DNA of 64,000 nt from Cystobacter fuscus (GTDB taxonomy: Bacteria; Myxococcota; Myxococcia; Myxococcales; Myxococcaceae). Shown here in pieces: positions 12,433-31,921 of the stretch. Each line of letters begins with the position of its first letter. Positions within the stretch are counted from its first letter, which is position 1. Under the pieces are notes generated by a model that had not been told where the DNA came from, ran no database searches, and saw only the letters and a program-made list of their open reading frames with translations. The stretch lies in NCBI RefSeq assembly GCF_002305875.1, contig NZ_CP022098.1:124001-188000 (forward strand). Direction: 5' to 3'. The position numbers and the translations under genes were made by a program.

Positions 12433-12927
12433 ATGACTGTCATCACGGTCACCACCCCGGTAGGGCGCCTGTCCCAGGCGCAACGCCGGGTGCTTGCCGA
12501 GACACTGACGGATGCGGTGCTCGAACCGGAAGTCGGTCAGCTGGCTCCTGCTGCCCGCGTTGGCTTCCAGGTCCATTTCATCGAGCGGAGCCTCGACAAC
12601 ATCGCCATCGGCGGCAAGCTGCTCGCGGACTACTCGCCCGCGCCGGACGTCATGACGGTTGGCATCGTGGTGATGAACGCGGCCTGGCCGCCTGACGTGC
12701 GACGGCAGGTGATCGAGAACGTCCTGCGGTGTCTCGCCGACGCGTGCGGAATGCCGTCTCCTTCGCCGGCCTGGTGGGTTCAGTTCCAGGTCATCGACGA
12801 AGGGAGCTGGGGCTCTCGCGGGCGTGCGATGTCCATCCTCGACCTGCTCGAGACGGGCGTGTTCTCCCCCGAGCGGGCCGCGGAAATCCGGGCGGTGCTC
12901 GCACGAGCAGGAGTCCCCCGGCGATGA
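12433..12927 (+). CDS. tautomerase-superfamily-like protein
   Basis: This is a 164-aa protein with two beta-alpha-beta units resembling fused 4-oxalocrotonate tautomerase/MIF folds. It opens MTVITVTTPVG, then LSQAQRRVLAETLTDAV, and has a second unit from about VMTVGIVVMNAAWPPDVRRQ. The catalytic N-terminal proline of the superfamily is not present after the initiator Met (Thr instead), so tautomerase chemistry is doubtful. The start is set by an AAGAGGA site 6 nt upstream of ATG 12433. The stop overlaps the next start by 4 nt (ATGA). It is probably co-regulated with the upstream hydratase by the TetR repressor. Confidence 0.65.
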   Translation: MTVITVTTPVGRLSQAQRRVLAETLTDAVLEPEVGQLAPAARVGFQVHFIERSLDNIAIGGKLLADYSPAPDVMTVGIVVMNAAWPPDVRRQVIENVLRCLADACGMPSPSPAWWVQFQVIDEGSWGSRGRAMSILDLLETGVFSPERAAEIRAVLARAGVPRR

Positions 12928-25131: not shown

Positions 25132-26682
25132 TCATACAAGATTTCCCGTTTGGGTGCGAGTTCCCCCAACTGGAACGAGTTCAGGCGTTTTCGCGGCATG
25201 GGGACTCGGCCAGGCACCCGTCAAGGTGGCCATCTTGCCCACGCAGGTGGCCGCCATGGCGATGAGGAGGGTGCCGAGCCAGCTGATGCTGCCCATGTCG
25301 CCGAAGCACTGGTTGGTATAGGCCACGATGACGGCCATGGCCACCAAAGCGCCGGCGCGCTGCATGGGTTCCCGGGCGCGGTGGTAGGTGCGCACCGTCA
25401 AGAAAACGGCCACGGAAATCCAGCCCCACAGGCCGCTGAAGCCCACCACCCCGCCGAAGGCGAGCATGCCCAGCACCGAGTTGTGCGGGTGGTAGCGGTA
25501 GTCGGCGAAGGCGTGGGAGATGTCCGGCAGGGGAATGATTTCGTCGAACTCGTGGCCCCACCCGCGGCCGAGCACGGGGTTGCTCTGCCAGGTGTGGATG
25601 ACGTCGAGGTTCTCGATGTCGCGGTAGTCCATCTGCCCCTTCTCCAGGTTCTCTCCCTCCAGCACCGAGCGGAAGATGCCCACCGGCCCGAAGATGCCCG
25701 TGGGCGTCTGCCAGCCCACCGCCAGGTAGAAGGGGAAGAAGGGCAGCAGCACCAGCCCTATCCGGAGGAACTTCACCTTGAGCGGGCTGCGGGGCGTGAT
25801 GAGGAAGGCGGCGATGAGCGAGAAGACGAAGCTCACGTAGCCCAGGCGCCGGTCGTTGTAGTGCATGCCCATGAAGATGACGGCGCTCACGATGACCATC
25901 CGCCAGAAGTGCTTGCGCGTGGGCTGCTCGAACCACGACATCATCACCGTCATGAGGCCCGCGACGTACAGCATCGAGTCCGAGTGCGTGGTGGCGTACT
26001 CGAAGTACAGGCCCCGCGGCCGGGCGATGGTCACGACGAAGAAGGCGCCCAGGAAGGCCTTGGTGCAGCAGCCCACCACGAGCATCCGGCCGATGGTGCG
26101 GAAGTCCTCGGGCCCGCGCAGCGCGACGTTGAAGAGCAGCACCAGGAGCGGCAGCGCCGCCATCTGGTGCCACTGCCACGTGGCCACGCGCGAGTTGCCC
26201 CCGTTGATGTAGATGCCGAACACCTGCAGCCAGAGGATGGTGGCGGGCAGCACCAGCAACCCGATGACGAGCGGCTTGGGCAGCGGCGTCGTGTACTCGT
26301 CGATGTTGATGCGGTTGGCGCGCCGGTAGGCATACAGCGCGAGGAAGCCCAGGGTGGCGATGTCCAGCAGGGGAAAGCCCAGGCCGGGCACGCCGATGAC
26401 GTTGCTCAGGTTGATGAAGAGCAGCTTGCCGGGGAAGTACAGCGGGGACTTCCACTCACCGTCGTAGGGCACCTCCGGCACCAGGTCCACCGTGACGGCC
26501 ATGACGAACAGGCCGAGCGTGAGCTTGCGCACCGGCTGCTGGCAGACCCACCACAGCGCGGCGGCGAGCACCATGGGCAGCACCGCCACCTTCGGCGCGA
26601 AGATGACGAGCCCCATCGTGGCCGCCACCAGCAGGGCCAGGAGCGACAGGAAGACGGGCGTGCGCGAGAGGAAGGCCTCCAT
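25132..26682 (-). CDS. wzyX: Wzy-type polysaccharide polymerase
   Basis: The 516-aa protein has about 12-13 transmembrane helices and a Wzy/O-antigen-ligase-type periplasmic loop. The signature WQSNPVLGRGWGHEF, a polar loop and YHPHNSVLGMLAFGGVVG are visible; the arginine in GRGW and the HN of HPHNS are typical of the family. It would polymerise flipped EPS repeat units on the periplasmic side. ATG 26682 is chosen over GTG 26688 because GAGG lies 8 nt before it. It is in the eps operon between a GT2 and the BY-kinase-like gene, as expected for M. xanthus WzyX. Confidence 0.88.
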   Translation of the reverse strand: MEAFLSRTPVFLSLLALLVAATMGLVIFAPKVAVLPMVLAAALWWVCQQPVRKLTLGLFVMAVTVDLVPEVPYDGEWKSPLYFPGKLLFINLSNVIGVPGLGFPLLDIATLGFLALYAYRRANRINIDEYTTPLPKPLVIGLLVLPATILWLQVFGIYINGGNSRVATWQWHQMAALPLLVLLFNVALRGPEDFRTIGRMLVVGCCTKAFLGAFFVVTIARPRGLYFEYATTHSDSMLYVAGLMTVMMSWFEQPTRKHFWRMVIVSAVIFMGMHYNDRRLGYVSFVFSLIAAFLITPRSPLKVKFLRIGLVLLPFFPFYLAVGWQTPTGIFGPVGIFRSVLEGENLEKGQMDYRDIENLDVIHTWQSNPVLGRGWGHEFDEIIPLPDISHAFADYRYHPHNSVLGMLAFGGVVGFSGLWGWISVAVFLTVRTYHRAREPMQRAGALVAMAVIVAYTNQCFGDMGSISWLGTLLIAMAATCVGKMATLTGAWPSPHAAKTPELVPVGGTRTQTGNLV

Positions 26683-26692
26683 CGTCACCGCC

Positions 26693-27927: not shown

Positions 27928-29436
27928 CTAGCGGGACTGACTCTCCAGGGGAAGGGTTTCCATCTCCGCCAGCACGGGCAGACCCAGCCCACGCTTGACC
28001 TGCCAGGACTGCAACAGCCGGCCGCTGAGCACGTCGCGGGCGATCGCCGCGAACACGCCCAGCATGAGCCCCGCGAGGATTCCACCCAGGGCGATCACCT
28101 TGGCGTTGGGCTTGATGGGGCTTCTGGGGAACTCGGCCGGGGTGAGCACGGTGTAGCGGTACTTGAAGTTCGCCCGGGCGATGTCGCGCTCGAGCCGGGC
28201 CGCGTCGATGCGCTTGCGCACCTGCTGCAGCGTGATGGTGCGCGCCTGCACGTCGTCCATCGCCGTGCGCACCTTGGGATTCTCCAGCATGCCCGGCAGG
28301 ATGCCCATGAGCACCCGCTCCAGGCCGTACGGATCCGGCATGGGCTCGTCGGGGAAGGGCACCGAGCCGCCTCCCATGCGCGCGTACTCGCGCGCCATCT
28401 GATCCTCCTCGTTCTGCAGCACGTGCACCTGGGGCGAGCCGTTGGCCGCCAGCGCCGCCACGCTCTGCTCCAGCTCGATGATGGACGGGTGGTTCTCCCC
28501 GTACAGCCGGCTGTTGGCCTTCATCTGCGCGCGCATCTCCTCCAGGCGCCGGTTGTGCTTCTCCTCGGCGTCGGAGATGGCGCGCCGCTTGGCGCGGATG
28601 AGGAAGCGCATCTCCGCCATGCGCTCGTTCGTGTTGAAGCCTCCCACGCGCGGGTCTCCCACCGCGCGCCGGCGTTCGATCATGATCTGCGCGAAGATCT
28701 TGTCGAACTCGAGCACGGAGGTCTTGTAGTTCTCCAGCGCCGTCTTCTCGTAGCCCTCGAGGATCTCCAGCGCCTCGTCGATGGCGGCCATGTCCTCGCG
28801 CTGGCGCGACTCGAGGAAGTTCTTCTGCGCGGCGTCGGCGAGCTCGTAGGCGAGCTGGGGATCCGGCCACGTCACCGACAGGCTCACCCGGCCATCGTCC
28901 GTGTTCACGCTCAGCTGCTTCTCCAGCATGCCCACCATGGCGTCCAGCTTGATGTCCTCGGTGGGACGGCCGGAGAGCAGGTGCACCAGCGTGTCCTTGA
29001 GGCGCAAGAGCGGGGCGCGCGTGGCCTCCCAGCGGTCCAGCAGGTTCACCCGCTTGATGAGCGACACGATGTTCTCGCGCTTCATCACCGCGCGCGCCGT
29101 CGAGCGCGTCACCGAGTCGATTTCCCCCGGCGGTCGCACCGGGCTGGGGGCCTCGGGCTCCAGGGCGGCGATGCGCTCGGGGTTGACCAGCGCGGCGATG
29201 GTGGCGGTGCGCTTGGTCAGGAGGATGGACTCCGAGTAGAACGTTCGCGGCAGGAACTTGGCGAGCGCCAGTCCCAGCGCCGCCGTCACCACGAAGGTTC
29301 CCAGCGCCAGCAGCTTGTGGCGCAGCACGGCGTTCTTCACGTACCCGAAGTAGTCGTGCATCGCCTCCCAGTCGAAGAGCTGCGACTGGGCGCGCTCCTG
29401 CTCGGGGTGCTCTTCGTTCGAGGGCATATCGCTCAT
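27928..29436 (-). CDS. epsV: Wzz/GNVR polysaccharide co-polymerase without kinase domain, EpsV-like
   Basis: The 502-aa inner-membrane protein has transmembrane helices at about 41-59 and 455-475 enclosing a large, mainly coiled-coil periplasmic domain. The proline-rich stretch TPAEFPRSPIKPNAK just before the second helix is the PCP signature. The cytoplasmic tail is only about 25 residues (VKRGLGLPVLAEMETLP) and carries no tyrosine kinase module, unlike Wzc. It would set EPS chain length and link the Wzy polymerase to export. It overlaps the upstream response regulator by 4 nt. Confidence 0.88.
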   Translation of the reverse strand: MSDMPSNEEHPEQERAQSQLFDWEAMHDYFGYVKNAVLRHKLLALGTFVVTAALGLALAKFLPRTFYSESILLTKRTATIAALVNPERIAALEPEAPSPVRPPGEIDSVTRSTARAVMKRENIVSLIKRVNLLDRWEATRAPLLRLKDTLVHLLSGRPTEDIKLDAMVGMLEKQLSVNTDDGRVSLSVTWPDPQLAYELADAAQKNFLESRQREDMAAIDEALEILEGYEKTALENYKTSVLEFDKIFAQIMIERRRAVGDPRVGGFNTNERMAEMRFLIRAKRRAISDAEEKHNRRLEEMRAQMKANSRLYGENHPSIIELEQSVAALAANGSPQVHVLQNEEDQMAREYARMGGGSVPFPDEPMPDPYGLERVLMGILPGMLENPKVRTAMDDVQARTITLQQVRKRIDAARLERDIARANFKYRYTVLTPAEFPRSPIKPNAKVIALGGILAGLMLGVFAAIARDVLSGRLLQSWQVKRGLGLPVLAEMETLPLESQSR

Positions 29437-29831
29437 GCCTCCCTGCGAGGACGGGCCGACAGCACCCGCTCCAACTGGTGACGGAACTCCTCGGGCGTGA
29501 AGGGCTTGATGAGGTAGCCGCTCACCCCCGCCTCCTCCGCCTGGGCCCGATCCATCGTCTGCGTGCGCGCGGAGATCATCAACACCGGGATGTCCTGGAG
29601 CACCGGCGTGGAGCGGATGAACTCGCACACCTCGTAACCCGAGATATCCGGCAGCGTCAGGTCCAGGCACACCAGCATCGGGCGGTGCTCGGCGAGGAAC
29701 TCCAGGGCGGCCTGTCCGCTGCCCGCCTCCAGCACCCGTGAGAAGCCCATCGACTGGAGCAGATCGCTCACCATCCGGCGGAACATGGGTGAGTCCTCGA
29801 CGACGAGAACTGCTCCTTGCTGCTGCTCCAT
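29433..29831 (-). CDS. epsW: single-domain response regulator, EpsW-like
   Basis: This is a 132-aa receiver domain alone. The acidic pair VVEDSPMF, the phospho-acceptor Asp in LVCLDLTLPD (about 57), the Ser/Thr of MISART and the Lys of LIKPFTPEEF are all present. There is no output domain, so it should act through protein contacts. Its place between epsX and epsV, with a 4-nt overlap to epsV, implies that it tunes EPS synthesis or export. No histidine kinase is encoded nearby, so the phosphodonor must be elsewhere. M. xanthus EpsW has the same size and position. Confidence 0.85.
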   Translation of the reverse strand: MEQQQGAVLVVEDSPMFRRMVSDLLQSMGFSRVLEAGSGQAALEFLAEHRPMLVCLDLTLPDISGYEVCEFIRSTPVLQDIPVLMISARTQTMDRAQAEEAGVSGYLIKPFTPEEFRHQLERVLSARPRREA

Positions 29832-29850: not shown

Positions 29851-30024
29851 TCAGCCTTCCATCGACATCCAGACGACCAGGACGACGAAGATGTAGAAGA
29901 AGTTGTACGCCACGAACATCGCCACCGCGCGTTTTACGCCGCGCGCCGCGTTGGGCTCCCGCGCCGCCAGACTCGGTAGGACGAGCAGTGCGTACAACAC
30001 GGACATCAACAAGAACTTCTTCAT
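29851..30024 (-). CDS. 57-aa membrane protein within the eps operon
   Basis: This small gene reads MKKFLLMSVLYALLVLPSLA, then a short polar segment (AREPNAARGVKRAV). A second hydrophobic segment, MFVAYNFFYIFVVLVVW, leads to MSMEG and a TGA stop. The first segment looks like a signal peptide or signal anchor and the second like a true membrane helix rich in Phe/Tyr. It lies 12 nt after epsX and 19 nt before epsW in the same direction, and its frame is free of stops. M. xanthus has one small gene in the same place between epsX and epsW, which supports reality. I do not know its function; an inner-membrane accessory of EpsV or Wzx is plausible. Confidence 0.72.
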   Translation of the reverse strand: MKKFLLMSVLYALLVLPSLAAREPNAARGVKRAVAMFVAYNFFYIFVVLVVWMSMEG

Positions 30025-30036
30025 GGCCTGATGATC

Positions 30037-31281
30037 TCAAAGCCTACCACGGTCATAGCGCACGACCAATCCAACGCTCGTGAACCACTGGACAACCGGT
30101 GTGAACAACCCGGTATCGGGCTGGAACGACAGGACGGCATGGTGTCGCCAGCTGAATTGTCCCTTCGCTTGGATGAAGAGGTAGCGGGTGAGCGGCAGAG
30201 GCAGCAGCGCCTCCATTTCCGCCCGCACTTCCTGATCGTTCCGGTGCAGCCCAGAGGTAAGTGGATGGGCATAGCGGATGCCACCGGTCACCTTGGCATC
30301 CCGCCGGCCCTCCCATTTCAGATCCACGCCCAGCTCACCCCGCGGTACGAGTTGGGTAGTCAGCGGATCCATATACGGCAGGTACCGGGCGCGCAGCCGG
30401 GCCGCCACGGGCCAGTGATGGCCCAGGGGCACGGGGGCCTCGAGGGTGGTCTCCAGGGTGGGCATGGTCACGTTGTACGGTTCCACCTCCGCCCGACGTG
30501 AGTACACCCGGCCCAGCGCGATGCCCGGCGCGAAGCTCACATCCACCAGCGGGCTGAAGGCGTGTTTGATTCCCGGCGCCACCTGGAGGACGGAGTCCCG
30601 GTTGGCGGTGGAAAAGGACACATCCTGGCCGAGCACCAGCAGGGTGAGGTAGTCGCGGCGGGTGGCGCCGTAGTTGGCCTCCAGGCGCAGCTGGGGCAGG
30701 CGCTGCTGGGGATAGGCGGCCTCGCCGCGCTTGAGCGGACGCACCGGGTAATCCAACAAGCCGTTGACGATCCACCCGAGGGTGCCCGCCACCATCAGGC
30801 GCTTGACGCCGAACGAGCCCTGAAAGCCCGCCAGGGTCTCCGTGTAGACGTAGGAACTGCTCAGGAGGAATCCCGCGGACTCGCCGCGACCGACTGGCAG
30901 ATCGCTGCCCCCGGCGCCCCGGAAGTCGCTGAGCGGGAAGGTGCCGAAGGTGGTGGTGTGGACGGCCACCAGCGAGAAGTCGCGGCGCAGCTTGTATTCC
31001 ACCCACGCATAGGCCGACAGCAGGAACTCGAAGGTGGGGCGCAGGGGCACCTGGCGCAGGAAGAACTGCGGCTCGGCGACGAACTTCACCTCCAGCCGGT
31101 TGGTGTACAGCACGCTGTCCAGGCGCGGGGCGAGCAGCAGGTCCGACACCACCTCGCTGCTGGCCTGTTCGGTCAGCAGCTTCGTGCGGACGACGGAGTT
31201 CAGACTCACCTGGGTCTTGTATTTGACGGCCGGAACGGAGGCCACCAACAGCCAGCCGAGCGCCAGGGCGGGCAGCGCCAT
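30037..31281 (-). CDS. epsX: outer-membrane beta-barrel of EPS export, EpsX-like
   Basis: The 414-aa protein has a signal peptide (LPALALGWLLVASVPA) and then alternating amphipathic strands throughout. Many strands end in aromatic residues, and the C-terminal strand is VGLVVRYDRGRL. The pattern and length allow about 18 strands. In M. xanthus, EpsX is an outer-membrane barrel that works with the short OPX protein EpsY to carry EPS across the outer membrane. The gene directly follows epsY with a 4-nt gap, which supports the same two-part export. Barrel topology is inferred from sequence pattern. Confidence 0.8.
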   Translation of the reverse strand: MALPALALGWLLVASVPAVKYKTQVSLNSVVRTKLLTEQASSEVVSDLLLAPRLDSVLYTNRLEVKFVAEPQFFLRQVPLRPTFEFLLSAYAWVEYKLRRDFSLVAVHTTTFGTFPLSDFRGAGGSDLPVGRGESAGFLLSSSYVYTETLAGFQGSFGVKRLMVAGTLGWIVNGLLDYPVRPLKRGEAAYPQQRLPQLRLEANYGATRRDYLTLLVLGQDVSFSTANRDSVLQVAPGIKHAFSPLVDVSFAPGIALGRVYSRRAEVEPYNVTMPTLETTLEAPVPLGHHWPVAARLRARYLPYMDPLTTQLVPRGELGVDLKWEGRRDAKVTGGIRYAHPLTSGLHRNDQEVRAEMEALLPLPLTRYLFIQAKGQFSWRHHAVLSFQPDTGLFTPVVQWFTSVGLVVRYDRGRL

Positions 31282-31285
31282 GCGT

Positions 31286-31921
31286 CTACTCCACCACCAC
31301 CACGTCGCCCGTCTTCAGGCGGAAGGTGGCGGCACCGCCCTCGTTGCGGCTGAGGTTCTCCCAGGTGAAGCGGATGCGCACCGGCTCCTGGTAGCCGGAC
31401 TCGCGGCGCAGCACGTAGATGGCGTCCTCGCGCGCGTAGTCGGTGAAGCCGCCAGCCTCGGAGATGGCCTGCAAGAGCCCCGCGCCCCACTCGAGCTTCT
31501 TCTGGCCCGCGTTGCGCACCTCGCCCAGCACCGACACCCGGATGAGCTGCGCCTCCTGCACCATGACGGTGACGACGGGGTTGGCCACCAGCTCCTTGAG
31601 CTTCTGCTCCACCGCGCGCGCGAGCGCCGCGGGCGTCTGCCCGGCGGCATCCACGTCGTTGATGAGCGGCAGGCTGATGCGGCCGTCGTCGCGCACGCGC
31701 GGCCGGCTGGAGATGCGATCCTGGTTCCACACGTTGACGTCGAGCAGGTCCCCGTTGCGGATGAGGTAGCTGTCGTCCTGCTGCGACGGCGGGGGCTCGC
31801 GGTAGTCATCCACCCAGACGAAGCGGCCGGGGTGGTAGCAGGCCGAGACGAACAGCAGCGCGGCCAGGGCGGCCAGACGCGGGAGGCGGGAACGGGCGGG
31901 ACTGGGCGGAAGGGTCTTCAT
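31286..31921 (-). CDS. epsY: short polysaccharide export (OPX/Wza-like) lipoprotein, EpsY-like
   Basis: This 211-aa lipoprotein has its lipobox Cys at 28 (LLFVSAC). It has a PES domain (about 50-130: YLIRNGDLLDVNVWNQDRIS, then RISLPLINDVDAAGQTP) and one SLBB domain (about 135-208: IRVSVLGEVRNAGQKKLEWG). It ends right after the SLBB, so it lacks the C-terminal amphipathic helix with which Wza forms its own outer-membrane pore. It should be a periplasmic part of the export channel that needs a separate barrel, here the next gene. Its start overlaps the wzx stop by 4 nt. Confidence 0.9.
   Translation of the reverse strand: MKTLPPSPARSRLPRLAALAALLFVSACYHPGRFVWVDDYREPPPSQQDDSYLIRNGDLLDVNVWNQDRISSRPRVRDDGRISLPLINDVDAAGQTPAALARAVEQKLKELVANPVVTVMVQEAQLIRVSVLGEVRNAGQKKLEWGAGLLQAISEAGGFTDYAREDAIYVLRRESGYQEPVRIRFTWENLSRNEGGAATFRLKTGDVVVVE

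Follow-up and report, generated by a model that had tools for sequence, protein, structure and literature searches.

What does a gene of only 57 codons do in the middle of an EPS locus? The window analyzed here, a stretch of 64,000 nucleotides from Cystobacter fuscus (contig NZ_CP022098.1, positions 124,001 to 188,000), carries such a gene between epsX and epsW, and an earlier note had suggested that its product could be an overlooked subunit of the export machine. The EPS pathway of Myxococcus xanthus is a model Wzx/Wzy system and is described as consisting of EpsZ, Wzx, Wzy, EpsV, EcpK, EpsY, and EpsX. The presumed locus tag of the small gene is absent from the main texts of the EPS papers searched, although the gene co-occurs with core parts almost without exception. 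Considering that EpsX of M. xanthus is MXAN_7418 (PMC9601211) and EpsV is MXAN_7421 (PMC7484181), the small gene of this species is presumably MXAN_7419, a designation that our search of main texts in the literature did not find.

The Small Gene and Its Neighbors

The genes that matter for the argument all lie on the minus strand of the window:

25132-26688, minus strand: wzy-EPS-like polymerase gene, from the subfamily found together with the small gene (profile match 3.6e-201; Pfam Wzy_C on related members)
27928-29436, minus strand: epsV, a PCP (polysaccharide co-polymerase) without a kinase domain (NCBIfam NF041864, 2.8e-109, below the curated cut-off)
29433-29831, minus strand: epsW, a single-domain response regulator directly downstream of the small gene (Pfam Response_reg, 1e-26; NCBIfam NF041866, 1.1e-50, below the curated cut-off)
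29851-30024, minus strand: the 57-codon small gene, encoding a predicted two-TM hairpin protein of a phylum-wide uncharacterized family (ORF reading, homologues, dN/dS, AlphaFold2 hairpin)
30037-31281, minus strand: epsX-like outer-membrane beta-barrel gene directly upstream of the small gene (NCBIfam NF041842, 3.3e-6, far under the cut-off; iterative profile; synteny)
31286-31921, minus strand: epsY, a D1D2 OPX export protein (NCBIfam NF041843, 4.9e-107, above the cut-off; Pfam Poly_export)

When the coordinates were re-read, the ORF proved to be as first described: 57 intact codons in the epsX-epsW interval, in the same direction as both neighbors, running from an ATG start to a TGA stop and separated by 12 nt from epsX (end at 30037) and by 19 nt from epsW (start at 29831). 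The product of 57 aa is MKKFLLMSVLYALLVLPSLAAREPNAARGVKRAVAMFVAYNFFYIFVVLVVWMSMEG. GC content at codon positions 1, 2, and 3 is 0.54, 0.33, and 0.89, which fits a coding gene of a high-GC genome. The earlier description of the gene as below usual gene-calling size is questionable, since 57 codons are not under the minimum of common gene callers, and its annotation is probably that of a hypothetical protein. The neighboring epsX-like gene scores 26 bits against the NCBIfam EpsX model, for which the cut-off is 550, with synteny intact; by this measure, the beta-barrel in this genus has diverged strongly from the model.

Conservation and Selection

A tblastn search with the single protein (E <= 1) found matches in 39 of 59 related genomes, the solid ones reaching down to approximately 40% identity, and none with an internal stop. 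A family profile built from 24 members was then searched in 195 genomes of the phylum Myxococcota and gave a raw count of 105, or 104 once one borderline match (G061) was left out, with about one copy per genome. The family spans approximately 40 genera, deep lineages of the phylum included, and an alignment-based scan placed it in M. xanthus AM003, Pyxidicoccus, Corallococcus, and Citreicoccus. That a small gene occupies the same place in M. xanthus, as had been stated from the outset, is borne out by strain AM003, whose locus (L126) reads EpsY, an epsX-sized gap, the small gene, EpsW, and EpsV.

The family motif is MxKLLLLSVL..I.LP..AAR..P.RGLKRA......FN..Y. Across 63 distinct sequences the best conserved positions are K3, L6, S8, P17, A20-A21, R22, P26, R28-G29, K/R31-32, F/Y40, and Y44, with N41 kept in 60%. 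Where the two sequences of a pair had changed sufficiently, dN/dS is 0.07-0.39. Values of 0.32 and 0.52 come from two pairs that show at most five differences, and pairs in which the ratio is zero or undefined carry no information. In a simple binomial test, most of the informative pairs depart significantly from neutrality, and in a six-frame control the annotated frame was stop-free and had the lowest pN/pS in all nine pairs tested. The earlier note had staked its reading on a frame kept in relatives and a dN/dS below 1; frame and residues are kept throughout the phylum, and the ratio in informative pairs lies below 1. Judged from these sequence comparisons, the small gene is a real, conserved protein-coding gene under purifying selection. 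A chance ORF is ruled out by the phylum-wide tblastn and profile relatives, the stop-free frame, and dN/dS.

Against Pfam-A and NCBIfam the small protein has no match above a curated cut-off, and membership of a known family in these collections is ruled out, as all matches are weak and scattered. One public record titled Comamonas sp. KCTC 72670 (L129) carries a Myxococcus-type eps locus with a small protein that is 93% identical; this record is probably mislabelled or misclassified.

Predicted Structure and Topology

AlphaFold2, run with an alignment of 25 sequences, places helices at residues 2-21 and 26-56 (mean pLDDT 91, pTM 0.70), and the small protein is thus predicted to be a two-helix membrane hairpin. 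Over 63 sequences the mean net charge of the central loop is +3.3, and in 61 of these both tails are less basic than the loop. Following the positive-inside rule, we infer that the basic loop lies in the cytoplasm and that both termini are periplasmic. Sequence and fold searches of the PDB gave no significant or informative match for the hairpin. The small gene as a detached piece of Wzy is ruled out, since its profile has no similarity to that of Wzy (hhalign probability 0.3%).

Co-Occurrence With a Wzy Subfamily

A profile of the Wzy subfamily matched 112 of the 195 Myxococcota genomes. Both genes are found in 104 genomes, Wzy alone in eight, the small gene alone in none, and neither in 83 (Fisher's p = 3e-46, a descriptive value given that genomes are not independent and phylogeny is ignored). 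The small gene co-occurs with Wzy/PCP across genomes, phylogeny uncorrected. Six of the eight Wzy-only genomes end at contig breaks: in five drafts of one genus, one contig end falls within epsX and the opposite one immediately ahead of epsV, and in G029 the contig runs out at the 5' side of Wzy, the place that the small gene occupies in the sister genome G009. Loss of the gene from these six drafts is ruled out, the apparent absence having been traced to contig ends. Of the remaining two, G100 has a Wzy fragment only and G102, a complete genome, has a clean deletion of approximately 5 kb in which EpsY, EpsX, the small gene, EpsW, and EpsV are gone and Wzy is kept. The EpsV model NF041864 matches 119 genomes, several more distant PCPs among them coming from genomes that have neither the Wzy subfamily nor the small gene.

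Two further observations concern these assemblies. The deletion in G102 is a natural deletion of the export module and maps to L145 around 12467-12476, compared with 5934-10965 in L080. Draft assemblies of one genus, apparently Corallococcus (L106-L114, from genomes G111, G113, G115, G117, G119, G120, and G124), break repeatedly in the interval from the epsX 3' end to epsV, which suggests that sequence there is hard to assemble.

Genomic Neighborhood Across the Phylum

The surroundings of approximately 60 family members were annotated with iterated profiles. The commonest order is EpsY-EpsX-small-EpsW-EpsV, and in loci without EpsW (e.g., L055, L057, L089, and L090) the small gene stands immediately before EpsV. 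Elsewhere it immediately precedes a fusion of PCP and Wzy, in one large clade (L032, L033, L034, L045, L051, L052, L053, L077, L078, and L079) and in one occurrence outside it (L061); in the fusion clade EpsY-EpsX (and EpsW-EpsV) follow approximately 4-6 kb further on where the contig is long enough. The automatic "fusion" label is unreliable for L041, L063, and L076, which have overlapping stop-to-stop ORFs, and misses L033, L034, L052, and L079, which are fusions by other scans. In seven loci (L040, L044, L046, L054, L059, L060, and L068) the small gene immediately precedes a stand-alone Wzy; all four such Wzy ORFs scanned match Pfam Wzy_C, three of them above the cut-off, and in three of the seven loci a PCP gene adjoins the small gene on the opposite strand. 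Several of the loci with the small gene before Wzy have EpsX/EpsY elsewhere.

Overall, in 60 of 62 judgeable loci the small gene is followed on its own strand by a PCP (directly or past EpsW), by a PCP-Wzy fusion, or by a Wzy; loci with EpsW next are counted here, the PCP following EpsW wherever the contig continues. In L043 the PCP is the next recognized gene, approximately 0.5 kb on, and L062 (G097) is the one real exception, in which the small gene lies apart from PCP and Wzy, yet in the same cluster. The neighbor arrangements need at least nine changes on the Wzy tree and the link to PCP/Wzy survives all of them, whereas linkage to EpsX/EpsY is not kept through these rearrangements, EpsX lying directly upstream in 32 of 64 loci. 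The near-invariant association of the small gene is with the inner-membrane polymerization module and not with the outer-membrane barrel EpsX. As adjacency to PCP/Wzy is kept in nearly all loci and that to EpsX is lost in half, the polymerization module is the likely partner, although all candidate partners share one cluster in many genomes and the linkage is therefore partly hitch-hiking.

The natural fusions, in which an EpsV-like PCP is joined to a Wzy polymerase, are single ORFs of approximately 800-1020 aa from stop to stop (for example, L034 5336-7804, minus strand). This fusion arose at least once on the Wzy tree and probably twice, and such fusions are genetic support for a PCP-Wzy complex.

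Proposed Role and Alternative Explanations

The small gene probably encodes an unrecognized small component of a known type of machine. We consider it moderately likely that the protein is an accessory subunit, so far unrecognized, of the PCP/Wzy polymerase complex in EPS-type Wzx/Wzy pathways, a role suggested by gene association and predicted fold. The small inner-membrane hairpin would work with the PCP/Wzy polymerization complex of the myxobacterial pathways, packed within the membrane between the transmembrane helices of the PCP, against Wzy, or both, with contacts made through the semi-conserved intramembrane residues S8, P17, N41, and Y44. It could thereby stabilize or gate the polymerase-PCP cage, stabilizing Wzy or coupling it to the PCP. 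The direct partner may be PCP or Wzy, both being compatible with the data, and the job is presumably not simply to tether the two, as the small gene is kept beside PCP-Wzy encoded as one polypeptide. In the enterobacterial common antigen system the PCP is an octamer with loosely packed TM helices that encloses Wzy in its membrane cavity (PMC10030265), a ring that would leave room for a small membrane subunit. Accessory factors are also usual in the EPS pathway, since EpsV works with the cytoplasmic pseudokinase EcpK in M. xanthus (PMC12004946) and EpsW acts on EpsZ (PMC12802240). A stricter version is possible but doubtful: in myxobacterial EPS-type machines the hairpin would be an obligatory third component of the inner membrane and would fill or gate the gap left between Wzy and the PCP TM ring, making the polymerase complex a three-part one. 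A three-part complex of this PCP/Wzy/hairpin type is described for no Wzx/Wzy system in the literature searched, and a protein of this sort is not a universal part, since other Wzx/Wzy systems do without it.

The same genomic record bears on whether the protein instead serves the export side. As a subunit of an envelope-spanning export machine and partner of EpsX/EpsY, it would form an inner-membrane base linking the PCP to the OPX/beta-barrel translocon. EpsX and EpsY are indeed present in the same clusters, the small gene directly follows EpsX in 32 of 64 loci, and the clean deletion in one complete genome takes the whole stretch from EpsY to EpsV, the small gene included, and spares Wzy. 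However, EpsX is not adjacent in the other half of the loci, EpsY/EpsX lie approximately 4-6 kb away in the PCP-Wzy fusion clade, and in several loci Wzy directly follows the small gene and EpsX/EpsY are found elsewhere, leaving this explanation quite unlikely. The earlier suggestion of an export-machine subunit consequently survives in part: a conserved membrane micro-protein under purifying selection and tied to a polysaccharide machine was found, whereas its connection to the outer-membrane beta-barrel side was not upheld. A small membrane regulator or an assembly or quality-control factor, acting on the stability of Wzy, PCP, Wzx, or EpsZ or on EpsW signaling and not as a stoichiometric subunit, is also unlikely. 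Its size and topology would match those of known small membrane regulators and the gene adjoins that of the regulator EpsW in many genomes, but it is kept in lineages without an adjacent EpsW (L055, L057, L089, L090, and others), and a fixed component would account at least equally well for its strong sequence conservation and its near one-to-one co-occurrence with Wzy.

Two other explanations concern the nature of the product. If the first hydrophobic segment were a cleaved signal peptide, a mature peptide of 35-37 residues would be left, single-pass or secreted, and the basic start, hydrophobic core, and A-rich end (P..AAR) do resemble such a signal. We regard this as very unlikely, because the strongly basic region right after the putative site (the loop with its mean charge of +3.3) disfavors translocation, AlphaFold2 gives a confident two-helix hairpin, and position 18, the putative -3 site, is often L or I. 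An untranslated spacer or leader, with the frame kept for translational coupling or RNA reasons, could accommodate the weak Shine-Dalgarno match ahead of the ATG and the short gaps on both sides, yet it is extremely improbable, given that amino acids are conserved throughout the phylum, that the annotated frame is under purifying selection, and that the gene persists in different gene orders.

If the small protein is a subunit of the PCP/Wzy complex, in vitro or heterologous reconstitution of the EPS pathway without it would be incomplete, and it would offer a small, easily manipulated handle on the cooperation between PCP and Wzy.

Comparison With Known Systems

Small membrane partners are familiar from other polysaccharide machines. 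PgaD has two TM helices and works with the PNAG synthase PgaC, and BcsF is a small TM protein of the cellulose synthase complex. Like these, the small protein is a predicted small inner-membrane protein whose gene lies beside that of a polysaccharide-polymerizing membrane enzyme, an enzyme with which PgaD and BcsF work. However, PgaD and BcsF belong to synthase-dependent pathways, whereas the small protein goes with a Wzx/Wzy pathway and has only approximately 57 aa, and the Pfam/NCBIfam family scans found no sequence relationship between them. The Wzz/Wzy pair of enterobacterial common antigen has the same kind of core partners, with approximately eight WzzE to one WzyE and the polymerase within the PCP ring, but a small third membrane subunit is not described for that complex (PMC10030265) or in a 2025 review of Wzy in which we looked for one (PMC12004945). 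Within the EPS pathway itself, a parallel is EcpK, the BY pseudokinase partner of EpsV in M. xanthus (PMC12004946), an accessory protein of the EpsV PCP whose recognition is itself only recent. EcpK is cytoplasmic, Rossmann-like, and encoded elsewhere in the eps locus, whereas the small protein, still a candidate for such a role, is a predicted membrane hairpin encoded beside epsV.
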